From: Sphingobacteriales bacterium
GTDB taxonomy: Bacteria > Bacteroidota > Bacteroidia > Sphingobacteriales > Sphingobacteriaceae
NCBI GenBank assembly: GCA_004292865.1
Contig: RDXP01000117.1
Coordinates: forward strand, 1-48,494
Reading direction: 5' to 3'
DNA length: 48,494 nt
The notes below the pieces were generated by a model. That model did not search any database, was not told where the DNA came from, and saw nothing but the letters and a program-made list of their open reading frames with translations. A program made the position numbers and the translations under genes. This document shows, in pieces, positions 4,456-35,239 of the stretch (the stretch's first letter is position 1; every line of letters begins with the position of its first letter).

Positions 4456-5353
4456 TACCTACCACCAACCTGTAATGCTGCAAGCCTGTATTAATGGTTT
4501 AGCTATTAAGCCCAATGGCACTTACGTAGATGTTACTTTTGGTGGCGGTGGCCACTCGCAAGAAATTATAAACCAGCTTAATGCCGATGGTATTTTGGTA
4601 GCCTTTGACCAAGATGTAGATGCACAGCAAAACTTAATTATGGATGAACGATTTGTGTTTATCGACCAAAATTTTAAATTCCTAAAAAATAATTTGCGCT
4701 TACACGGCACCTTACCTGTTGATGGTATTTTGGCCGATTTAGGGGTTTCATCGCACCAGTTTGATATTCCCGACCGTGGGTTTTCTATCCGTTATGATGC
4801 CGAGCTGGATATGCGTATGGACCAAACATCAAGCCTTACGGCCAAAGAAATTATAAATACCTATACCGAAGAAAATTTGCACAAGATTTTTGGCATGTAT
4901 GGCGAAATTCAAAATGCAAAATCGCTAGCCAAAACCATTGTTACAGCAAGGTTAAACCAAACCATAAACACGGTAAACCAGCTAAAATCCGCCATAAGCG
5001 CATTAATACCTAAACAAAAAGAAAACAAATACTTGGCCCAAGTTTTTCAGGCTTTACGTATTGAGGTAAACCAAGAAATGGAAGCCTTGCAGGTTTTTTT
5101 AGCGCAAACGATAGAGGTTTTAAAACCTGGAGGGCGGCTGGTAATTATGTCGTACCACTCGCTGGAGGATAGGATGGTTAAAAATTTTATGGCCAAAGGC
5201 AAATTTAGTGGCGAGGTAGAAAAAGATTTTTTTGGTAACGATATAAAGCCTTTTGATGTAATTACCCGAAAATCGGTTACGGCCAGCGCACAAGAGTTAG
5301 AAACCAATAACCGAGCCCGCAGCGCAAGGTTACGTATTGCTGTAAAACGATGA
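4448..5353 (+). CDS. rsmH: 16S rRNA (cytosine(1402)-N(4))-methyltransferase
   Basis: 301 aa; YHQPVMLQ, YVDVTFGGGGHS, GILADLGVSSHQFD, SYHSLEDRMVKNF. Confidence 0.97.
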   Translation: MLSTYHQPVMLQACINGLAIKPNGTYVDVTFGGGGHSQEIINQLNADGILVAFDQDVDAQQNLIMDERFVFIDQNFKFLKNNLRLHGTLPVDGILADLGVSSHQFDIPDRGFSIRYDAELDMRMDQTSSLTAKEIINTYTEENLHKIFGMYGEIQNAKSLAKTIVTARLNQTINTVNQLKSAISALIPKQKENKYLAQVFQALRIEVNQEMEALQVFLAQTIEVLKPGGRLVIMSYHSLEDRMVKNFMAKGKFSGEVEKDFFGNDIKPFDVITRKSVTASAQELETNNRARSARLRIAVKR

Positions 5354-5778
5354 GCAACCAGTTTAAAAGCAAAATAGAGGAAATACAGGAAGAAAACGAA
5401 GCCGTTTTTGAGCCTAAAGTAAAGCAAAAATCCGATTTTGCCTTGCCGGCCAATAACTTTTTTCACTTGCTTTTTGTAAAAGGAGTGGTATCAAAAGAGG
5501 CCGCTACCGATGCCTTGCCTTTTATATTGTTTTTATCGTTTTTAGCCTTAATATATATTGGTAACCGCCATTCGGCCGAAAACAATATACGCGAAATTGA
5601 TAAACTAAACAAAGAGGTGAAAGAGTTAAGCTGGGATTTTAAAACCCTAAAAGCCGACTTGATGTTTAAAAGCAAGCAAACCGAAGTAGTAAGCCGGGTA
5701 GATACCCTGTTGCAATTAAAAGTACCTGTTACACCGCCCATAAAAATTGTTGTAAGCCCCCGTGAATATAAGAACTAA
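5350..5778 (+). CDS. ftsL: FtsL-like division protein
   Basis: 142 aa; single TM segment then coiled-coil; located between rsmH and ftsI. Confidence 0.75.
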   Translation: MSNQFKSKIEEIQEENEAVFEPKVKQKSDFALPANNFFHLLFVKGVVSKEAATDALPFILFLSFLALIYIGNRHSAENNIREIDKLNKEVKELSWDFKTLKADLMFKSKQTEVVSRVDTLLQLKVPVTPPIKIVVSPREYKN

Positions 5779-7858
5779 CATATTATTAAGGGTTTATGCC
5801 GCTTTTGGCATTATACTGCTGTTTGCTTGCGCTGTGGTGGCCAAATTGGTACACGTACAGGTGGTGCAAGGGCCGCATTATAGGGCTATGGCCAAAAGTT
5901 TTAGTACCAAATATGTTGAAGTTGAAGCATCACGAGGAAATATTTATGCTATTGATGGCAGCCTTTTGGCAACATCGGTTCCGCAATATGAGGTGCGTAT
6001 GGATATGCTGGCTGGTGGTATAAAAGACGATAAAGTATTTTATGATAAAGTAGATTCGTTAGGGGCTGCTTTAGCTACTTATTTTAAAGACAAATCGGCC
6101 CGAGATTACACCCGCAAACTGCGTAATGCCCGCCAAGATAAGCTGCGTTATTTTCTTATAAAACGAGATATGACGTATCAAAACTTAAAGGCCATGAAAA
6201 AATTTCCGATGTTTAATTTAGGAAGGTATAAGGGCGGGATGATAACCATACAACAAAACAAACGCATTTTACCTTTTAGAAATTTGGCCGCCCGTACCAT
6301 TGGTTATAAAAACGAAAACGTAAAAAACGGCGTAGGCCTAGAGGGTGCTTACGGCCAATATATTAATGGCGAAAGTGGCAAGCGATTGGTGCAACGTATA
6401 TCGGGTGGGGTGTGGATGCCTGTAAACGAAGAAGATGAAATTGCCCCTAAAGATGGTGCCGATATTATTAGCACCATTGATATTAACATGCAAGATTTGG
6501 CACAAAATGCCCTACAAAAACAACTCGTAAAAAGCCAAGCCGACCATGGTACCGTAATAGTAATGGAAGTAGCCACAGGCGAAATTAGGGCAGTAGCCAA
6601 TTTTACCAAAGTTAGCGATGGCGTGTATAAAGAACAATTTAACTACGCCATTGCGGGCAATCAAGACCCTGGCTCTACCTTTAAGCTGGCATCGTACATG
6701 GCATTGCTCGAAGATAAATTGATAGACACCAACACCATGGTTGGTACAGGTACTTATAAAATACCAGGTAAGGTAATTACCGATTCACACGGAAGTATTG
6801 GCGTGGTAACGGTAAAAAAAGCCTTTGAACAATCATCGAACGCAGCTATTGCCAAACTCGTAAATACCAATTATAGGTTTAGGCAATCGAAATTTACCAA
6901 TCATTTATACAATTGGCATTTAAACGAAAAGCTAGAACTGCAAATACCTGGCGAAGCCCAGCCCGTGGTTAAAACGCCTAGAAATACCAGCTGGAACAAA
7001 AACATGACCTTGCCACAAATGGCCTACGGTTACGAAATGCAACTTACACCTTTAAAAATGCTATCGTTTTATAACGCCGTGGCCAATAACGGCAAATATA
7101 TTTCGCCCATTTTTGTAAAAGAAATTAAGCGATTAGGTAATTCGGTAGAACAGTTTAAGGCCCGGGTAATTAACCCCAAAATATGCTCGGATGTTACCCT
7201 AAGCAAGGTTAAAGCAATGCTTGAAGGCGTAGTAACCGAAGGTAGTGGAAAGCTAATTGTATATAACCCACTCTATAATATTGCTGGCAAAACGGGTACA
7301 GCCCAAGTGGCCGATGGAAACAAAGGGTACAAAGCCAATAAGCAATATCAGGCTTCGTTTGTAGGATATTTCCCTGCCGAAAACCCCAAATACTCGATGA
7401 TTGTGGTAATAAACGACCCCAAAGGATTATATTATGGTGCGCTGGTATCGGGGCCTGTTTTTAGGGAAGTAGCCGACCATATTTTTGCCAGTGATATGGA
7501 TATGCTACATTACGCAAACATTAAACAAAAAACCACAAGCCGCAGCACCCCCCAAGCAAAACAAGGCTACAACAAAGCCAATAATATGGTTTACAATAGC
7601 TTTGGCATAAAAACACAACTAGAAAAACTAAGTACCGACGATGCCGATAGCAATAGCGGTATTGCCTATAAAGAGGTATTTAAACGCCGAGGTATTGTGC
7701 CCAATGTAACAGGTATGGGCTTAAAAGATGCGCTGTATGTGTTGGGGAACTCGGGCTTAAAACCCATTATTAGCGGCAGCGGGCAAGTTACCAATCAATC
7801 TATTTTGGCGGGTACACCTATTATTAAAGGAACTAAAATTTTAATCGCATTACAATAA
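5762..7858 (+). CDS. ftsI: division transpeptidase (class B PBP) with C-terminal PASTA domain
   Basis: 698 aa; DPGSTFK (SxxK), SSN, KTGTAQVA; C-terminal 'VPNVTGMGLKDALYVLGNSGLKP'. Confidence 0.95.
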   Translation: MNIRTNILLRVYAAFGIILLFACAVVAKLVHVQVVQGPHYRAMAKSFSTKYVEVEASRGNIYAIDGSLLATSVPQYEVRMDMLAGGIKDDKVFYDKVDSLGAALATYFKDKSARDYTRKLRNARQDKLRYFLIKRDMTYQNLKAMKKFPMFNLGRYKGGMITIQQNKRILPFRNLAARTIGYKNENVKNGVGLEGAYGQYINGESGKRLVQRISGGVWMPVNEEDEIAPKDGADIISTIDINMQDLAQNALQKQLVKSQADHGTVIVMEVATGEIRAVANFTKVSDGVYKEQFNYAIAGNQDPGSTFKLASYMALLEDKLIDTNTMVGTGTYKIPGKVITDSHGSIGVVTVKKAFEQSSNAAIAKLVNTNYRFRQSKFTNHLYNWHLNEKLELQIPGEAQPVVKTPRNTSWNKNMTLPQMAYGYEMQLTPLKMLSFYNAVANNGKYISPIFVKEIKRLGNSVEQFKARVINPKICSDVTLSKVKAMLEGVVTEGSGKLIVYNPLYNIAGKTGTAQVADGNKGYKANKQYQASFVGYFPAENPKYSMIVVINDPKGLYYGALVSGPVFREVADHIFASDMDMLHYANIKQKTTSRSTPQAKQGYNKANNMVYNSFGIKTQLEKLSTDDADSNSGIAYKEVFKRRGIVPNVTGMGLKDALYVLGNSGLKPIISGSGQVTNQSILAGTPIIKGTKILIALQ

Positions 7859-16543: not shown

Positions 16544-17887
16544 ATGGAAAAAGGCATCACAAAACAAGGTAAAAATTCGCCCATAGTAGTTGGGTTGGAT
16601 ATTGGTACTACCAAAATATGCGTAATTGTAGGCCGCCGAAACGAGTACGGTAAAATAGAGGTACTGGGCTTGGGCAAAGCCGAATCGGCTGGGGTAACCC
16701 GTGGCGTAGTATCTAACATTGCAAAAACTGTAAAAGGCATTGTAGATGCTGTAAAAGAAGGCAGTGCACAATCAAATGTGGATATTAGAGTGGTAAGCGT
16801 AGGTATTGCTGGGCAGCATATTAAAAGCCTACAACACCGAGGCATATTAACCCGTAAAGATTTAAGCTCCGAAATTTGCAAAAAAGATATCGACCGCCTA
16901 ATCGACGATATGTTTAAACTAGCCATGAACCCCGGCGAAGAAATTATTCATGTGCTTCCGCAAGAGTTTACCGTAGATAATGAACCTGGTGTAAAGGATC
17001 CAATTGGCATGGCAGGTGTTAGGCTCGAAGCTAATTTTCATATTATTACTGGACAAGTTACCGCCATTAAAAATATTATGAAATGCGTTACCAATGCCGA
17101 TTTAGAAACACAGGATTTGATATTAGAACCTTTGGCATCGTCCGAATCGGTATTAAGCGACGAAGAAAAAGAAGCTGGCGTAGTATTGGTGGATGTAGGC
17201 GGTGGCACTACCGATGTAGCTATTTTTCACGAAGGTATTATCCGCCATACGGCAGTAATTCCTTTTGGAGGCAATAGCATTACCGAAGATATTAAAGAAG
17301 GCTGCGCCGTTATGCGTAACCAAGCCGAGCTGCTAAAAGTTAAATTTGGTTCGGCCCTGGCCGATGAAAATAAAGACAACGAAATTGTATGCGTACCCAG
17401 CTTGCGTGGCCGCGAACCCAAAGAAATATCGATAAAAAACCTTGCCAATGTAATACAAGCCCGCATGGAAGAAATTATCGAACATGTGTATTACGAAATA
17501 AAATCGTCCAACTACGAAAATAAACTCATAGGCGGCATTGTAATTACAGGTGGTGGGGCGCAGCTAAAACATGTTACCCAATTGGTGGAATTTATTACAG
17601 GTTTCGATTGTAGGGTGGGTTACCCTACCGAACATTTGGCCAAAAACGAAGCCCTGCCTAAAAATGTATATGAAGATTTAAAAAGCCCCATGTATGCCAC
17701 AGGTATTGGTTTGCTGATGAAAGGCATCCAAAAAATAGAAGACGAAATGCTTAAAGATAACACCACAGCAAAGCAAACTAAAATTAGTGCCGAGCCTACA
17801 AAATCAAAAGGCTTATTCGCTTCAATAATTGAGGGAAGCAAAAAATTTATTAAAGACGATATTAGCGATACTGATTTTTTAAAGTAA
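16544..17887 (+). CDS. ftsA: cell division protein FtsA
   Basis: 447 aa; VGLDIGTTKICVIVG, VDVGGGTTDVAIF, ITGGGAQLKHV. Confidence 0.97.
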   Translation: MEKGITKQGKNSPIVVGLDIGTTKICVIVGRRNEYGKIEVLGLGKAESAGVTRGVVSNIAKTVKGIVDAVKEGSAQSNVDIRVVSVGIAGQHIKSLQHRGILTRKDLSSEICKKDIDRLIDDMFKLAMNPGEEIIHVLPQEFTVDNEPGVKDPIGMAGVRLEANFHIITGQVTAIKNIMKCVTNADLETQDLILEPLASSESVLSDEEKEAGVVLVDVGGGTTDVAIFHEGIIRHTAVIPFGGNSITEDIKEGCAVMRNQAELLKVKFGSALADENKDNEIVCVPSLRGREPKEISIKNLANVIQARMEEIIEHVYYEIKSSNYENKLIGGIVITGGGAQLKHVTQLVEFITGFDCRVGYPTEHLAKNEALPKNVYEDLKSPMYATGIGLLMKGIQKIEDEMLKDNTTAKQTKISAEPTKSKGLFASIIEGSKKFIKDDISDTDFLK

Positions 17888-17950
17888 TTGAAAGCGTGAA
17901 TTTGATGATTATTGAGAGATATAAGCGTTATGGTTTTACATCGTTTAGGT

Positions 17951-18057
17951 GCGTTAACGATTGCAACGGCATCCTTTTTTTTATTGCCCCCCATCTTGGG
18001 CAATTGGCAAATGGGGGGCAATAAAAAAAAGATATAGTGGAAAGCGTGTTAAAACGC
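17951..18057. repeat. two-tier inverted-repeat element, possible structured RNA or Bacteroidota repeat
   Basis: Perfect 20-nt arms TTTTTTTTATTGCCCCCCAT (17975-17994) and ATGGGGGGCAATAAAAAAAA (18011-18030), 16-nt loop; outer stem GCGTTAAC (17951-17958) with GTTaaAACGC (18048-18057). Confidence 0.75.
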
Positions 18058-18263
18058 CCAAATTATAATTTTTAAAAAATACATTATATATAACAATTGA
18101 AGCTAGTTAGTTACATGTTTAACTGCTCAGGAAATTAAGTTATCAACATTTTTTATTTTTCAACAGACTAACATTTGTGGAAAACGATTGTGGAAAAAGT
18201 TATATCATTACAATACATATTAACCTAAGTGTAAATTAATTTAAAAAACTGAATATTAAGTAT

Positions 18264-19898
18264 ATGAAGTTTGAAATGCTAAAAGAAAAATCATCTATTA
18301 TTAAAGTAATAGGTGTAGGCGGTGGCGGTGGCAATGCCGTAAACCACATGTATAGGCAAGGCATAGCCGGTGTAGATTTTATTATTTGTAACACCGATGC
18401 ACAGGCATTAGAGCTAAGCCCTATACCCAATAAGGTACAATTAGGTGCTAGCTTAACCGAGGGAATGGGCGCAGGTTCGATACCCGAAGTGGGTAAAAAC
18501 TCGGCCATCGAAAATATTGACGATATAAAAGATATGCTGGGTAGCAATACCCGAATGCTGTTTATAACCGCAGGTATGGGCGGCGGCACAGGCACAGGCG
18601 CAAGCCCAATTATTGCTAAAGCCGCCCGCGAACTAGATATACTAACAGTAGCCATTATTACTACGCCCTTTTCGTTCGAAGGAAAACGCCGTAAAATGCA
18701 GGCCGAAGATGGGCTGGAAGAGCTGAAGAAAAATGTAGATTCGTACCTTGTAATTTCTAACGATCGCCTTCGCGAGATTTTTGGTAACCTCACCCTAGGC
18801 TCGGCATTTGGCCAGGCCGATGATATTTTAACTACCGCCGCCAAGGGCATTGCCGAAATTATAACCCTACCAGGCTATATCAACGTTGATTTTAAGGATG
18901 TTCGCACCGTAATGAAAGATAGTGGTGTATCTATTATGGGAAGTTTTTCGGCCGAAGGCGAAGAACGGGCATTTAAAGCTGTAAAAGGTGCGCTATCATC
19001 CCCATTATTAAAAGATAACGAGATTGAAGGCGCAAGCTATATTTTGTTAAACATTAGCTCGGGCACCAAAGAAGTTACCATGGATGAGGTAAGCATTATT
19101 ACCGATTTTATACAGGAACAAGCAGGCCTATCGGCCGATTTAATATGGGGAAATTGTAGTGATGAAAACCTTGGCGAAAAAATATCGGTAACCATTATTG
19201 CTACCGGTTTTCAAACCAAAGAAGAACGCGAACAAACCCGCCAAAGCGTACCCGTAAAACAATACCTAAACGCCGAAAACCCATTGATAAAACCTGTTGC
19301 CAATGTTTTACAAGCAAGCAATAATTTTATTAAACCCCTTGCCGAACATACCCAGCCTGTGCCTAAAAAAGAAGATAAGCAACAGATTGACTTATTTGGC
19401 CACACCCTCGCTACAAAAGAAAAAAACACTTCGATAAGCGATACCAAATATATTGGTGAAGATATAATTAAACACCAATTGGTAGAGGAAGAAAAAGAAG
19501 AAGCCCCTACCGAAATCGAAGAACCATCGGCTTTAAAGTTTGATGTTAAAATTTCGGAATCGGAATTTGCTACGCCGTTATTTATACCCGCTGCGCCCGT
19601 TGCCGAAACACCAGAATTGGTGGATGTAGATGCGCATAAAAACGACGAATCGATGGAAGAACAATTGCGAAAATCGAAAGAACGTATTTTACGTTTAAAA
19701 GATTTAAGCATGAAACTGCGCACCAGCAATGGTTTACAAGAAATGGAAAACGAACCAGCCTATAAGCGTAAGCAAATGCTTATGGATAATGTTCCCCACT
19801 CCTCGGAATCAATAGTTTCTCGTTTTACGCTTTCGCTAGAGGATGGACAAACGGAAATACGGCCAAACAATTCCTTTTTGCATGACAATGTAGATTGA
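18264..19898 (+). CDS. ftsZ: cell division GTPase FtsZ
   Basis: 544 aa; GVGGGGGNAVNHM, CNTDAQAL, GGGTGTGASPI, with long C-terminal linker. Confidence 0.98.
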   Translation: MKFEMLKEKSSIIKVIGVGGGGGNAVNHMYRQGIAGVDFIICNTDAQALELSPIPNKVQLGASLTEGMGAGSIPEVGKNSAIENIDDIKDMLGSNTRMLFITAGMGGGTGTGASPIIAKAARELDILTVAIITTPFSFEGKRRKMQAEDGLEELKKNVDSYLVISNDRLREIFGNLTLGSAFGQADDILTTAAKGIAEIITLPGYINVDFKDVRTVMKDSGVSIMGSFSAEGEERAFKAVKGALSSPLLKDNEIEGASYILLNISSGTKEVTMDEVSIITDFIQEQAGLSADLIWGNCSDENLGEKISVTIIATGFQTKEEREQTRQSVPVKQYLNAENPLIKPVANVLQASNNFIKPLAEHTQPVPKKEDKQQIDLFGHTLATKEKNTSISDTKYIGEDIIKHQLVEEEKEEAPTEIEEPSALKFDVKISESEFATPLFIPAAPVAETPELVDVDAHKNDESMEEQLRKSKERILRLKDLSMKLRTSNGLQEMENEPAYKRKQMLMDNVPHSSESIVSRFTLSLEDGQTEIRPNNSFLHDNVD

Positions 19899-21220: not shown

Positions 21221-22777
21221 TTACTTATTTTTATACGTTGCAATGGGTATAATTACCTCTTCCAAAGAAATGCCCCCATGCTGAAAAGTTTCGTTATAAT
21301 AATTAACAAACTGGTTATAATTGTTTTGATAAACAAAATAAGTATCTTCTTTGGCAAAAATATAGCTTGAGCTTACATGTAATTTGGGCAATAGTGCATC
21401 GTGTGGGTTTTTTATTTGAAACACATCTTTGGCTATAAAGTTTAAATTTTTACCCTGTTTATACCGTAAGTTAGCGTTGGTGTTTCTATCGCCTATTACT
21501 TTACTAGGGCTTTTTACCCTAATGGTACCGTGGTCGGTGGTAATTACTACACGTACTTTTTTTTGCGAAAGTTTTTTTAGTAGTTCTAAAAGTGGCGAAT
21601 GCTCGAACCACGATAAGGTTAACGAACGGTATGCTGCATCGTCATTGGCCAGTTCGCGTATCATTTGCATATCGGTACGGGCATGCGAAAGCATATCTAC
21701 AAAATTATACACAATGGCATTTAGTTCGTTATCCATTAGGTTGTTTAACGAATCGTTGAGGTCTTTACCTTGGTCGAATGTTAAAATTTTATGGTACGAG
21801 TGTTTAATATCTTTGCGTAGCATCCGTTTAATTTGGTCGTCAAAAAAATAGGCTTCGTGTAAATTTTTCCCGCCTTCTTCTTCATCGTTTTGCCACTTAT
21901 CGGGAAACCGTGTTTCCATTTCGGAAGGCATTAAACCCGAAAAAATTGCGTTTCGGGCATATTGGGTTGCTGTGGGCAATATGCTATAATAAATATCTTC
22001 TTCCTCGAGCCTAAAATATTCGGTAATAATGGGGTTAATAATCCTCCATTGATCGTACCTTAAATTATCTATCAAAATAAAAAAAACAGGAACGTTTGGG
22101 CTAAGCAAGGGAAAAACTTTCTTTTTAAATAACTGGTGCGATAATGTGGGTGCCGTATCTTGATTTTTTATCCAGCCCAAATAATTTTTTTCGATAAACT
22201 TACAAAACTGCATATTGGCTTCGGCTTTTTGCATGGTAATAATTTCACGCATACCTGCATCCTCTAGTTGCTCCAGCTCCAGCTCCCAAAAAACTAATTT
22301 TTTATACACATCAATCCATTCTTGGTAAGTAAGGTTATCATTTAAGGTCATCCCAAGGGTTCTAAAATCTTGCTGGTAAGCCATTGATGTTTTTTCGCTT
22401 ACCAATCGTTTGTTATCTATTAATTTTTTTATGGTTAATAAAATTTGTTTGGGGTTTACGGGTTTAATTAAGTAATCATCTATTTTGGAACCTATTGCAT
22501 CCTCCATCAAGTATTCTTCTTCACTTTTGGTAATCATTACCACGGGCACATCGGGGTTTATATTTTTAATTTCGGTAAGGGTTTCTAAGCCTGTAAGGCC
22601 TGGCATATTTTCATCCAAAAACACAAGGTCGAAATCTTTGGTTTTAAAAATCTCTAAGGCATCGTTCCCATTTGTGGCGGTAGCTATGTGGTATCCTTTA
22701 TCGTTTAAAAACAGTATATGGGGTTTTAATAAATCGATTTCGTCATCGGCCCAAAGTATATTGGTATTTTGCATCAT
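21221..22777 (-). CDS. porX: T9SS regulator PorX (response regulator receiver plus PglZ-like domain)
   Basis: 518 aa; receiver 'ILWADDEIDLLKPH...LVFLDENMPGLTGLETL', then alkaline-phosphatase-like core (FFILIDNLRYDQW, VVITTDHGTIRV). Confidence 0.93.
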   Translation of the reverse strand: MMQNTNILWADDEIDLLKPHILFLNDKGYHIATATNGNDALEIFKTKDFDLVFLDENMPGLTGLETLTEIKNINPDVPVVMITKSEEEYLMEDAIGSKIDDYLIKPVNPKQILLTIKKLIDNKRLVSEKTSMAYQQDFRTLGMTLNDNLTYQEWIDVYKKLVFWELELEQLEDAGMREIITMQKAEANMQFCKFIEKNYLGWIKNQDTAPTLSHQLFKKKVFPLLSPNVPVFFILIDNLRYDQWRIINPIITEYFRLEEEDIYYSILPTATQYARNAIFSGLMPSEMETRFPDKWQNDEEEGGKNLHEAYFFDDQIKRMLRKDIKHSYHKILTFDQGKDLNDSLNNLMDNELNAIVYNFVDMLSHARTDMQMIRELANDDAAYRSLTLSWFEHSPLLELLKKLSQKKVRVVITTDHGTIRVKSPSKVIGDRNTNANLRYKQGKNLNFIAKDVFQIKNPHDALLPKLHVSSSYIFAKEDTYFVYQNNYNQFVNYYNETFQHGGISLEEVIIPIATYKNK

Positions 22778-28102: not shown

Positions 28103-31100
28103 TTACTGTATCGTAAACTTAAGGTTTATACCAAAATTACTAAATGCGGTTATAAATGTTTGCGAGGTATAAGGTTTGGTAATATTGGTATCGTAAAACA
28201 AGCGTACATTAAATCGCTGGTTAATTACATAATCAATACTTGGGCGATAGGTTATATTTTTTGACCCTGTTGATATTTCGGCTTCCTTGGTATCGGCCCT
28301 GTAAATTACTGTTTTATTATCCCGTATGGCAATATCTAATTTAAAATTAAGGTCGTTTTTTAAAGTTACGCCTTTTAAAATCCCAAACGGGAAACGGAAA
28401 TTAGCGGTGCGGTACCCAAACCCAATTACAACAGCTTCATCATTTTGCTGTGCCAGCTGGCTATTGCTAATACCAAAACTTAGGCTTCGCGATTTTCGGT
28501 ACTCGAGGTTAGTGGTAACATTGTTTTTCATCCTTACATCAATACCTAGCAAGGGTACAAATTGCTCAAAAATTGTTACTTGCGAAAACTGATATTTTGG
28601 TAAAAAATTATTGTTTACATCCCTTACGCTTGCCGCACCATTGGTTTCGTTATAGCGTATCAAGGTATTAAACGAGTTTACATTATAAGTTGATGTATAG
28701 CCGTGTGTAATATCAATTGAAGTAAAAAGCTCGCTAAAAAAGGAGAGTTTAGATAAGCCATTATAAGTAAGGCGCCAGTTAGGTAAAGGTATGCTAGGGA
28801 AATTATTAAGGCTCGATTTGCTTGCGTTTTTTCCTTTATAAGCGGCTATAAAAGCTGGCACCAATACATCTTGCGAGTTTTTGCCATAACCATCGGCATA
28901 AGTATCGTTACTAGGGTTACTGTTGGGATTTTGCTGGCCCAGGCGTTTAGAAATAATTTCGCGATTGTCCAAAAACGCTTGAAAAACAGATGAGAGCTTA
29001 TCGGCGTTTTTATCTTTAAATGCCGTGTTTAATGCAATAAACGAAACACTAAAACTTCCTGTAGTTATTGGGCTTAAATTAGCAAACTGTTTATTGCTAT
29101 CATCAAACCTAAAATTGGTAGAATAATTTTTGGTTTCGTTTCTAAATGCCGTAAGCTCGATGCGTAAATCGGTAAAGGGCTCTAGCGTTCCTCGTAAATT
29201 TAACTTGCTATCAAGGGTGTTTACATATAACTGATTTTGTAAGATATCGGTAGTTATCCAGCCATTTGCTAATGCTTTGCCTCGTATATCGTTTTGCGAG
29301 CCTAATAAAAACCCTATGCCTGGTGCACTGGCGTCAAAATCATAACCCAAAATTTTGGTTCGGGGTAAATAGCCTGGTAAAAATGTGCCTTCGTTTTTGG
29401 TGTACGAACCACCTATATTTTTAAAACTTAGCAACACTTTTAAAACACTTTGGGCTAGGGTAGTTTTTTTGGTCGAATCAATGGTGTTTAAACGCTTGTA
29501 AAACGGAAATTTATCGTACAGGTTTACCAAGTTTAAAGTGGGATTAAACTGTATGGTACGTTGGTTTTGTACCGTGTTACCAAAATTAATAGCGGGGTCC
29601 ACTAGGGTTATTAAAGGCTCGCTACGCCAGTTAAAACTGGTTTGGTAACGGGTAATTAAGCTAATAAAGTTTAAGTACGGTATTTTATTTAAGGGTACGG
29701 TATAGCTTAAATTAATGGTGTGGTTATAATCGGTTGTGCGGCCTAGTTTTTGTAAATTTTGCCATAGCGTATCTCTTTTTAGGCCTGTTATACGGCCTTC
29801 GGGTTCATCAACCACACCTAGGTTGGTAGCATTAAAATCTAATTTTAGCGATTTTGATAAATCCCAACTTATACCATATAAACGGTTAATAATAAAGTTT
29901 TTATTAAAAGTGGTATTTACTGGGATAAAGTTAGTGGGGTCGTTATTGTTGCGCAACGAGTTTTCGGAGTACAGCCTGTCTAGCTCGATTCTGAAATTAA
30001 GCACCGATGGCAAAAGGTTAAAATTAAAATCACGCAACAAAGCCAGCATATTGTTTTTAATTCTTTTTTGTAATGGCGAGTAAAATTTGGCCGTCGAATT
30101 ATAATTATAGCCCAGTGCGGCTCTATAATTTTTTTGGAAGTTGCTTTTGGTGATAAAATCTTTTTGTTTAAACTCGTTGTACGAATAGCTGGCATTAAGG
30201 TTTTCTATATCCCACAAGTGCGATTTGGCATTAGGGTCGGTTTTAATTTTGCGTATATTGGTAAAGTTGATGCTTTTGCGTACAGCTACATTTTGCGAAT
30301 ACTCCAATATCTCTTTTTGCTGTTCGGCGGGTAAGGAGCTTAGTACGGTTTTTAGCTCAATATCGGGTTGTTTAGGGTCAAATTGTGGCGTACTTACTTG
30401 GTTCGAGTAGTTTGCCGAAACAGGTAATTTTATACCTACCTTATCGGGGAAAAACTTGCCTAGTTCGAGGCTTGTAGCCACATCAATTGATTTATCTTCG
30501 GATCGTTTGGTTTCGCTTACCCTTTGCTCTAGCGAGCCAAAGCCAATAGATGTTTGGTTTGCCGATACGGTAATATCGCCAAAATCGGCCAGTTGGGCAT
30601 TCATGCGGGCAGTAGCAGCCCAGCCACCTCGTTCGTCAAAATCGGTTACCCGCAATTCGTTAAACCATACTTCGGCGGTTTTAGGCAGGCCATCATCATT
30701 GTTTAAAATGGTATTTGCTTTGGGATTGCGCACCCCAAGCATTATGGTACGTACCTTACTTAAATCGGGCTGGCCTTTAATAATTATGCTGTTTTTGCCA
30801 TCTATTTGGTAAAGAAAAGGATCATTTACCGACGAGTGTTCGCCTCTAATTATTGCCGCATTACGGGCTGTTTTAGCTAGTTGAAATTGTTTAAATTCAA
30901 TTTCCATACGGTTTTGGGCTGGCCATATTAGCTCTGGGTCGCGGGTGCCTTGTTGGGTTACCCTTAGCGGGATATTGTACTCGTAATAGTTATCTTGATA
31001 ATCGGTTCCTACACGTAAAAAAGCATTTACTTCGCCATCTCTAAGCTGCTGGCCTTCGGCGTGGATAAACATTTGTAAGCGTTTGTACGACCTAAAATCG

Positions 31101-34100
31101 TTGATAGTAGTTTTGTAAGCCGCCCGCGAGTAACCATCTTGTAGGTTTTGTACTTTTAGCAATAGCGACTGCTCGTTTTGGCGGCTTTCGCCCCTAAAGT
31201 TCGAAAAATCTTTTTCACGTAAAATACCAGGGGGCACTACATAAGGAATAGGTGTTTTGGACCCGTTTTCTTCGATATTTACTACACCTACATCAAGCAA
31301 CGAGTTATCAATACCCGAAGTGCCAGGGTCTTTAATTTCTTTGGAGATGCTTTTTTCGGCATTATACCTACGCCATTCGCCCCGTATAAGTTGTAACCTT
31401 GCAAAACGGAGTATGGTAGTTTCGTCAAAATCGGTCATAAACATCCGCATAAAACGTATCGACCTAAAATCTTGTATGTTTCCTATTTTATCGTTGTATT
31501 GTGCTATGGGTACTCTAAATTGGTACCAAGTGGCACTTTGCGAGCTACCGTCAACCAGTTTTATCGTTGAGGTAATTTTATCTACAACATTGTTTTTACC
31601 TACTTCTAAATCTTGAGGGCGCATGCTTACCTTGTATTGGTAATATTCGTCTGATCGGGTAAGGTTATTATCCCTATTCAAATCTTCGCCATCGGGCAGG
31701 GCGGTTGCTGCCGAGTTTTCGATACCTAGTTCGTTGGTTGATTGTTGGGCAGTTTTCGAGTTTCCTTCGGTACCATTAAAGTTTTCGTAGCGTTTTAATA
31801 TGCCAGCATTTTGTTGATCAAGCTGTGGCCCTCTAAAATAAGTATAATCATCTGATGCGGGGTCGGCATTTAATTGTGCGGCGGCTTGGGGGTTTAATTG
31901 TGCCACAATGGGTTGTAGTACAGTTGCAAATTTTTGGCGCTCATCGGCACTGCTTATCCCATCAATACCCACATCTTGTTTTTGCCTGGCATCGGGGTTA
32001 TTATCAAATGCCTGTATAATAGGCTGTAGCTTGGGTACTATTCCCCATGCGGTAGCCTCGGTACGGCTGGGGTCGCCATCGGCGGGTAAGCCGTTTTCTA
32101 ATGCTTTTCGGCCATCTCGCAGTACATCTTCCGATATGTTTCCTAGGTTAAAGTATAAATCGCCACCGCTAGCATTAGGGTTTTTAATAAAGGGGTCTAA
32201 CACCCAAAACTCAATAAACTCAATATTTAAGGCTTCAAAATCATTGTTATCAATACGCCTAAAAATACCGCCCCACTTACTCCTTGGGTTGCTAAAGGTG
32301 CCATTATTGTTTAAGCCTGCGGCTGTAAAATTATAGGGGCCACGCAATGAAGGGTAATAAGCCACATTAAAGGTAGGTAATGATAATGGTGTACCCGATG
32401 GGTTTTGCCTAAACGGAAAAACCTCTGTTTCTACCACTTCTCGCACATAAGGGTCGGATAGTTCGGCTTTATTGTTTCTAATATTAGCGGGTGTAAGGCT
32501 GCCCGATCGGTTATAAAACAGTGGGTCGATATTAAAAAACGATACCTTGGCTCGGTTAAATCCATAAGCCAAATCATTGGATAATTTAGCTTCTTGAAAA
32601 TACTGTGGTGTACCCGATATTTGCCACATAGTAGCCGCTTTTAAATCTATAATTGATCTGCTGGCTTCAAAATCATCAATATAACTTGCACCTGTGGTAT
32701 TTCCTGCAAAGTTTAAGGCTTTAGGGTGGCCTGGGTTAAACTTGGCAAACTCGCCACTAAACGATACCGACGATGGGGCTTTGGTGGATATAAAAGGCAA
32801 TTTATCAATCATGCGGGTTAAAAACCGGCTGCTGGCACTATAGTTTACATCAAACCCGTAAATGCTGTTAGCTACAGATTCTTCCCCAAAATTTACTTTA
32901 GGTGTTAAAGGCTGTTCGGTAAGTTTTAAATAGGTAGCACCAAAATTTATTTTTTCGCTTATTTTATAATCTAAGCGGGTACCAAAAAGTGTTTTTTGCT
33001 GTACGCCAAATAGTTCGTTGCTCTCTAAGCGTATTTTTATGGGCTGCCCCGAGCTTAGTAAAGCCGTATTTAAAATTTTAACCCTCCCTACATTATAATC
33101 AACGGTATAATCGGCTCCTTCCACCAGTTTTAAAGTACCCGAAGTTACCACTACCGAACCCTCGGGAACATTGATAGCATTTAACTGAAACTCGGAGCTT
33201 ACCTGCGATTGGTACGTTCCTTTTATCACATAGCGGTTAAGTTCGGGGTGTAATTGCTGTGCGAGTGCTTGGGTCGAATCGTACAGCGGCTGGTAAACGT
33301 ATTTATCAATTAAAGCTTTTTCGCTCGGGCCCGCATTGGGGCTTGGTGGGAGGATTTCAAATTCTCTAAATTTTGCTTTTAAATCTTTACCAAAAGGTTC
33401 GATATATGGAAATATAATACGGCCATTAGTAGGGTCGATGGTTACACCAGGTATAAAATCAAAATAGCCATCGGGTACTGCATCTCGCTGTTGGTTTATC
33501 CTATCTAGGCCGGTAACTTGTAGCCATAATTTACCCGAAAGCTTGGTTCTTTTTAAGGAATTTACAGGGTTAACAGGGTCTATTAAAGTTCCTTCATTTA
33601 TGGCTGGGTTTTCTACTCCCTTATCGTTATCAACCCTTGTAATGCTTAGTTTAAAATCTTGAGGGCTTATTTCATACGCATTAAGGGCGTAAATATTTTT
33701 CATCATTAAATTCCAAATAGGCAATTTGGTTTTAATGGTTTGGTTTTTTAATAGCTTGGTAAAAAGCACTTTTGGGCTAGCTAAATCTACTGTTCGGTCG
33801 TTTGAAAACTCGCCCACTTGGTATTCTACCCCGTTTACCGTGTAGCGGTAGGCTACGGCCAATACTTCATCGGTATTTAAGGCTGCGTTTAACGATATAA
33901 AACCTAGTATAGGGTTAAGGGTATATTCTTTTTCGGTAAGTTTACGGGCATAAGTAAGTTTGGTATAATTATCGGGGCCGTTATTGTTCTGAAAAAAATC
34001 ATCTATTTCGTTATTATTTGTTAGCCGGGCGTTAGCTGGTATTTTTTGTAATAAGTTGTTTGATTGTAATTGAGGAAAATTAGGGTCGGTAAAGGCCGAT

Positions 34101-35239
34101 GGTAAACCACTAAACCCAGCACCCCCTTGAATAAGCGTGGTATTGTGTGGGCTATTTTCGCCCAAATCCATAAAAGCCAATATATCTCGCGAATCGCTGG
34201 TGCTATTGGTTTTATTGGTTACCCATACTTCTAGCTTGGTAATGTTTACAGCCGAGGTAATAATGGGCAGGTTGGCCATTGCCTTATTATAATTATTGCG
34301 AAAGTATTGCGCTAAAAAAAAGTGCTTGTTGGCTTCATACGCATCGGATGTTATCCTAAACTCGTTTTGCTGCGAGCCATTGGTAATGGTAATTTCTTTG
34401 GCTTGCGAGCGTTGTTGCGAAAACAAGGTGGTAATGCCCAAGCGGCCAAACTGTAATTGTGTTTTTACCCCAAATAGGGCTTGTGTACCCGTAATTAACT
34501 GTGTAGTAAGCGGAAAACTTACTACACCTAGCTCTAAGCGTTGCAGGATATCATCTTTTTTACCCGGAAAATCTAGCTTAATTTGGTTTTCGAAATCAAA
34601 CTGGGCTTCGGTACTGTAATTTAAGTTTAACTTTAACCTTTCGCCTATTTTACCTGCTAGGTTCATTTGTATGCGTTGGTTAAAATCGAAGTTTCGTTGT
34701 ACCCTTTGTTTTTCGTTAAATAGGGGGTTTTCGTTTCGGTTTATACGGCCACCAAAAGTAAGGTCGGCACTACCACGGGGGCTTACGCTTATGGTATTGC
34801 CACCAAATACGGTTTCAAAAATTTTATTTCTAATTTTTATGCTTGCGCCCAAGCCTTTTTTACCCGCTGGCGATGAGGCATTGGTTACTAAACCACCCCA
34901 ATATTCTTTTTTTATTTTTTCTAGCTCTATTTGCTGGTATTCTTTAAATGTAAGGTACTGTGGCTGGCGGTATAGTTTATTGCCCAGCATTTCTTTAATA
35001 ATGTAGCGGTTGTTTTTGGCATCGTACTCAACGGTGCGTTTAAGGTTTTCGGGAGGGTTTAAGCTAAACTCGGTAGGTACAAAAAAAGGGGTGGCATAGC
35101 TATCTTTAAACCTATATTTTAATTTAAGGCTGTCGGCTGGGTTTTTTGGCACAGGTTTTTTTATTTGCGCCACCACATTTATTTGCACCAAGCACAAAAA
35201 TAAAAGTATAAACGTAAATAAGAGGCTTATTTTTTTCAA
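28103..35239 (-). CDS. sprA: T9SS/gliding motility outer membrane translocon protein SprA (Sov)
   Basis: 2378 aa with signal peptide; e.g. 'GNTTGASYIDDFEASRSIIDLKAATMWQISGTPQ' and 'AEVWFNELRVTDFDERGGWAATARMNAQLADFGDITVS'; size and ruvA adjacency fit. Confidence 0.95.
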   Translation of the reverse strand: MKKISLLFTFILLFLCLVQINVVAQIKKPVPKNPADSLKLKYRFKDSYATPFFVPTEFSLNPPENLKRTVEYDAKNNRYIIKEMLGNKLYRQPQYLTFKEYQQIELEKIKKEYWGGLVTNASSPAGKKGLGASIKIRNKIFETVFGGNTISVSPRGSADLTFGGRINRNENPLFNEKQRVQRNFDFNQRIQMNLAGKIGERLKLNLNYSTEAQFDFENQIKLDFPGKKDDILQRLELGVVSFPLTTQLITGTQALFGVKTQLQFGRLGITTLFSQQRSQAKEITITNGSQQNEFRITSDAYEANKHFFLAQYFRNNYNKAMANLPIITSAVNITKLEVWVTNKTNSTSDSRDILAFMDLGENSPHNTTLIQGGAGFSGLPSAFTDPNFPQLQSNNLLQKIPANARLTNNNEIDDFFQNNNGPDNYTKLTYARKLTEKEYTLNPILGFISLNAALNTDEVLAVAYRYTVNGVEYQVGEFSNDRTVDLASPKVLFTKLLKNQTIKTKLPIWNLMMKNIYALNAYEISPQDFKLSITRVDNDKGVENPAINEGTLIDPVNPVNSLKRTKLSGKLWLQVTGLDRINQQRDAVPDGYFDFIPGVTIDPTNGRIIFPYIEPFGKDLKAKFREFEILPPSPNAGPSEKALIDKYVYQPLYDSTQALAQQLHPELNRYVIKGTYQSQVSSEFQLNAINVPEGSVVVTSGTLKLVEGADYTVDYNVGRVKILNTALLSSGQPIKIRLESNELFGVQQKTLFGTRLDYKISEKINFGATYLKLTEQPLTPKVNFGEESVANSIYGFDVNYSASSRFLTRMIDKLPFISTKAPSSVSFSGEFAKFNPGHPKALNFAGNTTGASYIDDFEASRSIIDLKAATMWQISGTPQYFQEAKLSNDLAYGFNRAKVSFFNIDPLFYNRSGSLTPANIRNNKAELSDPYVREVVETEVFPFRQNPSGTPLSLPTFNVAYYPSLRGPYNFTAAGLNNNGTFSNPRSKWGGIFRRIDNNDFEALNIEFIEFWVLDPFIKNPNASGGDLYFNLGNISEDVLRDGRKALENGLPADGDPSRTEATAWGIVPKLQPIIQAFDNNPDARQKQDVGIDGISSADERQKFATVLQPIVAQLNPQAAAQLNADPASDDYTYFRGPQLDQQNAGILKRYENFNGTEGNSKTAQQSTNELGIENSAATALPDGEDLNRDNNLTRSDEYYQYKVSMRPQDLEVGKNNVVDKITSTIKLVDGSSQSATWYQFRVPIAQYNDKIGNIQDFRSIRFMRMFMTDFDETTILRFARLQLIRGEWRRYNAEKSISKEIKDPGTSGIDNSLLDVGVVNIEENGSKTPIPYVVPPGILREKDFSNFRGESRQNEQSLLLKVQNLQDGYSRAAYKTTINDFRSYKRLQMFIHAEGQQLRDGEVNAFLRVGTDYQDNYYEYNIPLRVTQQGTRDPELIWPAQNRMEIEFKQFQLAKTARNAAIIRGEHSSVNDPFLYQIDGKNSIIIKGQPDLSKVRTIMLGVRNPKANTILNNDDGLPKTAEVWFNELRVTDFDERGGWAATARMNAQLADFGDITVSANQTSIGFGSLEQRVSETKRSEDKSIDVATSLELGKFFPDKVGIKLPVSANYSNQVSTPQFDPKQPDIELKTVLSSLPAEQQKEILEYSQNVAVRKSINFTNIRKIKTDPNAKSHLWDIENLNASYSYNEFKQKDFITKSNFQKNYRAALGYNYNSTAKFYSPLQKRIKNNMLALLRDFNFNLLPSVLNFRIELDRLYSENSLRNNNDPTNFIPVNTTFNKNFIINRLYGISWDLSKSLKLDFNATNLGVVDEPEGRITGLKRDTLWQNLQKLGRTTDYNHTINLSYTVPLNKIPYLNFISLITRYQTSFNWRSEPLITLVDPAINFGNTVQNQRTIQFNPTLNLVNLYDKFPFYKRLNTIDSTKKTTLAQSVLKVLLSFKNIGGSYTKNEGTFLPGYLPRTKILGYDFDASAPGIGFLLGSQNDIRGKALANGWITTDILQNQLYVNTLDSKLNLRGTLEPFTDLRIELTAFRNETKNYSTNFRFDDSNKQFANLSPITTGSFSVSFIALNTAFKDKNADKLSSVFQAFLDNREIISKRLGQQNPNSNPSNDTYADGYGKNSQDVLVPAFIAAYKGKNASKSSLNNFPSIPLPNWRLTYNGLSKLSFFSELFTSIDITHGYTSTYNVNSFNTLIRYNETNGAASVRDVNNNFLPKYQFSQVTIFEQFVPLLGIDVRMKNNVTTNLEYRKSRSLSFGISNSQLAQQNDEAVVIGFGYRTANFRFPFGILKGVTLKNDLNFKLDIAIRDNKTVIYRADTKEAEISTGSKNITYRPSIDYVINQRFNVRLFYDTNITKPYTSQTFITAFSNFGINLKFTIQ

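Follow-up and report, generated by a model that had tools for sequence, protein, structure and literature searches.

The ftsA-ftsZ gap holds a hairpin of the Flavo-1 family

The window analysed here (the whole stretch of 48,494 nucleotides, contig RDXP01000117.1 of a Sphingobacteriales bacterium) carries the co-directional genes ftsA (PF14450) and ftsZ (PF00091/PF12327), and in the gap between them lies a large hairpin at 17951-18057. The perfect 20-bp arms, 16-nt loop, internal-loop strands and outer helix described in a first-pass annotation are all present there. The features of the region, all on the plus strand, are as follows.

17892-18108, +, possible extent of a decayed insertion unit (the extra gap length of ~250 bp fits a unit of 215-240 bp)
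17943-18055, +, match to Flavo-1 (RF01705), full model 1-76 (cmscan 54.6 bits, gathering 42, E 3.3e-9)
17951-17958, +, 5' strand of the outer helix, GCGTTAAC (sequence reading)
17959-17974, +, 5' strand of the covarying internal-loop helix, GATTGCAACGGCATCC, central dinucleotide A17966 C17967
17975-17994, +, left arm of the variable hairpin, TTTTTTTTATTGCCCCCCAT (sequence; mirrored change in the G013 ortholog)
17995-18010, +, terminal loop of 16 nt, CTTGGGCAATTGGCAA (sequence reading)
18011-18030, +, right arm of the variable hairpin, ATGGGGGGCAATAAAAAAAA (sequence reading)
18031-18047, +, 3' strand of the covarying internal-loop helix, GATATAGTGGAAAGCGT, central dinucleotide G18037 T18038
18048-18063, +, 3' strand of the outer helix, GTTAAAACGC, with the conserved tail CCAAAT (consensus AACGCCCAAAT over copies)

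The outer 3' strand, GTT-AA-AACGC at 18048-18057, is the partner of GCGTTAAC, and the alignment of copies shows that window-type copies in the host genome (G000) mostly begin with GCGTTAACG. Covariation pairs the central dinucleotide A17966 C17967 with GT at 18037-18038. The terminal loop is mostly kept in the orthologs of two relatives, G011 and G013. As RNA the hairpin folds at -45.9 kcal/mol (z -4.27), and 0 of 200 shuffles were equally stable. No terminator-like site (a GC stem followed by a U-run) was found in 17850-18300, which agrees with the earlier view that the hairpin is not a terminator. Elsewhere in the window, both on the minus strand, are a gene for a response-regulator receiver fused to a PglZ domain (21221-22774) and the SprA gene of type 9 secretion and gliding (2378 aa, 28103-35239).

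The first-pass annotation could name no Rfam family for the hairpin and held that a match to a known one would count against its proposal; the hairpin is in fact a member of RF01705 Flavo-1, a named family of unknown function, which it matches over the whole model and above the Rfam gathering cutoff (54.6 vs 42 bits), with the consensus pairs in place, including the short pairs within the internal loop. Like the model, the window copy has a variable hairpin and a covarying helix in which A/G mismatches are conserved; it differs in its inner stem, which is longer at 20 bp, and in an outer GCGTTAAC/GTTAAAACGC helix that extends past the model. Rfam files Flavo-1 as sRNA, and annotation pipelines carry it as a small-RNA gene, while here it behaves as a mobile repeat. 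The family was defined computationally in Bacteroidetes and rated as probably RNA and not cis-regulatory (Weinberg et al. 2010, PMC2864571). In the Flavobacterium psychrophilum transcriptome, Flavo-1 matches fall on either strand relative to transcribed regions without clear distinction, and a large number show no transcription (PMC9723704).

The element was gained in a single lineage

The ftsA-ftsZ gap measures 123-127 bp and is element-free in 14 congeners, whereas it measures 375-413 bp only in G000, G011 and G013, which carry the element and whose FtsZ proteins are 95-99% identical. Among 80 named Sphingobacteriaceae genomes, 77 have a gap of 120-132 bp without the element; of the other three, two carry it (these are the G011 and G013 records, the latter ending at a contig edge) and one is cut off. 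The ~125-bp region that adjoins ftsZ in the short gaps is still present downstream of the element, and the ~250 bp of added length match a full unit (215-240 bp) better than the 107-bp core. The gap is therefore polymorphic for an insertion, and the element was gained recently and specifically within the G000/G011/G013 lineage. Because only the host and two close relatives carry the ~250 extra bp, we read the hairpin as a lineage-specific insertion and not as an attenuator of ftsZ.

Flavo-1 copies are dispersed in the host genome and its relatives

The host genome holds 58 Flavo-1 matches, 52 of them at E<=0.001, and one further weak partial match. None of its copies lies inside a long ORF, and the orientations of the upstream and downstream genes relative to the copy (++ 17, -- 13, +- 9, -+ 6) show no bias. 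The genus, in the Sphingobacteriaceae, includes Pedobacter psychrophilus (G007), P. cryophilus (G003) and Pelobium manganitolerans (G006); among its 18 genomes the number of matches at E<=0.001 ranges from 1 to 119, G003 and G007 having more than 100 copies each. Across the family, 92 of 151 sampled genomes contain a match at E<=1e-5. The suggestion of a dispersed repeat was thus borne out, and flanks of the form GCGGCATCC-hairpin-GATATAGCGGA, as the first-pass annotation had proposed, do recur, in the host genome and in many Sphingobacteriaceae. A replication-strand bias, hinted at by a partial list, was absent from the full list for G007.

Tandem Flavo-1 arrays of ~232-bp units occur amid unrelated genes in another genome (G093; L312 ~5090-5880 and L313 ~4830-5750). 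Separately, the palindromes CCTGCCTGCGCAGGCAGG and CTTGCCTGCTGGCAAGCAGG are nested in the Flavo-1 loops of the G011 ftsA-ftsZ gap (L178) and of several host copies; these are other short repeats inserted into hairpins.

The internal loop is a covarying helix

Both internal-loop strands share one motif, which makes the loop two-fold symmetric. The central pairs are both Watson-Crick in 120 of 135 extracted cores, about 7 of the exceptions being spurious pattern matches, against a mean of 44 and a maximum of 60 in 2000 shuffles. In 124 cleaned copies nearly all of the strongest covariation lies along a single antiparallel register, one position of which shows as many as four pair types, and conserved A.G/G.A positions lie between the pairs; nine register pairs are 96-99% Watson-Crick, although the copies are related by descent, so that these counts are of non-independent events. 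The anticipated covariation around a conserved internal loop was therefore found. The conservation of that loop also held, with one correction: the loop is not unstructured but forms a helix that covaries and keeps A.G/G.A mismatches at conserved positions. Since the Rfam consensus already contains most of these pairs, the covariation confirms rather than extends the Rfam structure.

Wobble pairs are scarce and arms change in mirror image

The core pairs comprised 1090 Watson-Crick, 14 G.T, 3 A.C and 9 others (G.T 14/1116, 1.3%), and the arm pairs 1120 Watson-Crick, 5 G.T, 2 A.C and 18 others (G.T 5/1145, a lower bound, as the counted arm stems are bounded by mismatches). In tRNA stems from the same loci we counted 271 Watson-Crick and 27 G.T pairs (27/298, 9%), so wobble is seven-fold scarcer in the Flavo-1 core. 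The arms at the window site read ATTG/CAAT in the host and G011 and AAATAG/CTATTT in G013, and at another orthologous site (C17/L346) ~8 positions are replaced in both arms. At orthologous sites, then, the arms change together as mirror images and the loop and flanks persist, as would be expected from arm-templated repair or from the conversion of one copy by another. Scarce wobble and mirror-image turnover favour maintenance at the DNA level over a cis-acting RNA. For the mismatches to be conserved, selection must act on a fold, of either single-stranded DNA or RNA, and the excess of G.T over A.C (14 vs 3) is compatible with both an ssDNA hairpin and RNA; G.T is the more stable mismatch in DNA too. 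The near-absence of wobble together with mirrored arm turnover can serve more generally to distinguish DNA palindromes from covarying RNA structures.

Some copies are packaged as IS982-type MITEs

In longer alignments some Flavo-1 copies bear the inverted ends AACCTGAGTTCGATTATTAAAC/GTTTAATAATCGAACTCAGGTT. Many full units of ~215-240 bp in sister genomes have terminal repeats (TIRs) AACCTGAGTTCGATTATTAAAC and TNNNA target duplications: among 35 full-length units with inverted TIRs, from sister genomes or the host's own, the 3-bp flanks are identical in 18 (2.7 expected) and identical 5-bp TNNNA flanks occur in 14 (1.5 expected). The TIR motif has 25, 10, 69 and 38 matches in G000, G011, G012 and G013, respectively, and a reversed control has 0. 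Many full-length units in the sister genomes are thus MITEs of the non-autonomous kind, bearing IS982-family ends and flanked by target duplications. The same TIRs bracket elements of ~1010-1036 bp in G001, G002 and G014; the transposases of G001 and G014 are intact and of the IS982 family (NF033520, 265-272 bits, cutoff 130), and that of G002 is split across two ORFs. Autonomous-looking IS982 elements that share the MITE ends exist in the genus. A ~1-kb TIR pair with <=3 mismatches was not found in G000, G011, G012, G013 or G015.

Within the host genome both ends exceed the 99% background level in only 4 of 58 copies, and one end does so in 11. Around the window copy, weak remnants resembling IS982-type terminal repeats lie at 17892-17913 and 18092-18108, individually non-significant (P 0.08 and 0.47), and there is no recognisable target duplication; its ends are too decayed to establish such packaging, and significant IS982 ends on this copy are not supported. 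An apparently clean empty site in G011, for the copy at C99:16718, proved to be an internal deletion that retains the right end. The end motif has no matches in G003 and G007, each with more than 100 Flavo-1 copies. Because these genomes lack such ends, packaging by IS982 counts as one carrier, in a single clade, and not as the origin of Flavo-1, and the core is older and wider than this packaging.

A ~240-bp IS982-derived MITE is known from Cardinium (MITECca01; PMC9769881). Both it and the units described here are ~240 bp long, have IS982-type inverted repeats and no transposase, and occur in many copies in Bacteroidetes. However, MITECca01 keeps ISCca4 sequence, whereas the present units have a Flavo-1 core at their centre, and the window copy's own ends are not demonstrable.

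Flavo-1 sites outside the genus

Single-copy genomes of other genera hold near-identical 81-nt Flavo-1 copies that mostly lie directly after topoisomerase III genes (L290, L295 and similar, near position 1500). The topoisomerase III genes were identified by NCBIfam matches, and we take further neighbouring genes to be RteC- and Erm-like. The arrangement suggests that these copies may be passengers of CTnDOT-like elements, another carrier. A conserved single-copy ancestral locus was rejected, as the single copies mostly adjoin topoisomerase III genes. An integron attC-like site was likewise rejected: by eye the outer helix is unlike RYYYAAC/GTTRRRY, and the copies are not cassettes.

Flavo-1 as mobile DNA

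We consider it probable that the window feature is one copy of Flavo-1 as a structured, dispersed and mobile DNA element. It would have arrived as a MITE that an IS982 transposase mobilised in trans, its ends having decayed since; the hairpin would be kept at the DNA level, as a cruciform or single-stranded hairpin subject to arm-templated repair, the internal loop would be the recognised structure, and this copy would have no specific role in ftsZ expression. The non-significant TIR remnants, the small number of host copies with one or both ends, the lack of a ~1-kb TIR pair in the five genomes named above and the excess of G.T over A.C in core pairs speak against this reading, as do the conserved mismatches and restricted covariation, which show selection on the fold that a passive passenger would not need. 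It is a good deal more tentative that the whole family is a class of mobile DNA hairpins and not an sRNA, with the two-fold symmetric, purine-mismatched loop a putative recognition site for a DNA-processing enzyme, and that carriers of other kinds, such as IS982 MITEs and CTnDOT-like integrative elements, have repeatedly picked it up. Ordinary in position, the window copy is informative as a case for Flavo-1 behaving as mobile DNA. Should the copies prove to be mobile DNA hairpins, many features annotated as 'sRNA' in Bacteroidetes would be misleadingly labelled, and attention would turn to the enzyme that recognises the conserved loop.

Flavo-1 might instead be a genuine small RNA or mRNA element that was spread by transposition and acts as RNA (e.g., a protein-binding stem or a 3'/5' stability element), the window copy affecting the ftsA-ftsZ mRNA. 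The sRNA filing, the strong covariation with conserved G.A mismatches, the 14:3 ratio of G.T to A.C and the stable fold fit such an element, as does the rating of probably RNA (PMC2864571). We nevertheless regard it as unlikely, given the unbiased orientation relative to genes, the scarcity of wobble relative to tRNA stems, the indistinct sense and antisense matches and many untranscribed ones in F. psychrophilum (PMC9723704), and the G011 ortholog, where two extra palindromes are found; one of them interrupts the conserved internal-loop strand and the other lies in the outer helix. Far less credible still is an attenuator, bidirectional terminator or RNase processing site specific to ftsA-ftsZ. 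The position between two co-directional genes invites that idea, and the first-pass annotation had proposed a tuning of ftsZ relative to ftsA; however, the region has 0 terminator-like sites, among relatives only the two closest carry the element in this gap, the ~125 bp on the ftsZ side are retained, and 57 further host matches adjoin unrelated genes in either orientation.

Between these two in our estimate, and improbable, is an atypical REP mobilised as ssDNA by a RAYT (Y1/HUH tyrosine transposase), comparable to the Bacteroidetes subclass 2.6, whose RAYTs have unnamed atypical repeats (PMC6006769). Flavo-1 shares with REP/RAYT (TnpAREP) systems the short intergenic palindromes, conserved unpaired (single-stranded) flanking parts and high copy number, and the host genome has one RAYT-like gene. 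It differs in having no conserved GTAG guide, and a RAYT gene systematically flanked by Flavo-1 was not found: only 7 of 58 Y1_Tnp/RAYT regions (mostly 5 kb) in the 18 genomes hold a copy, about chance at the density of high-copy genomes, which led us to reject a RAYT-flanked repeat (REPtron) in this genus. Nor is there a global strand bias in G007, and the host RAYT-like gene is flanked by a different palindrome. This gene (L062, 1345-1974, on G000:C2) matches NF047646 below the cutoff (52.6 of 80 bits), and its own palindrome, CCGATGCCTTCGCT/AGCGAAGGCATCGG, is partly tandem.

DnaA-box-like sites upstream of ftsZ

DnaA-box-like sites are clustered just upstream of ftsZ, at 18140-18197 of the window and in the gaps of 77 Sphingobacteriaceae genomes (L381-L460). 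Matches to TTATCCACA with <=1 mismatch average 2.6 per ~127-bp ftsA-ftsZ gap, compared with 0.03 in shuffles. The exact box is present in 25 of the 77 gaps, and the window has three one-mismatch sites; these motifs point to a possible link between DnaA and ftsZ.
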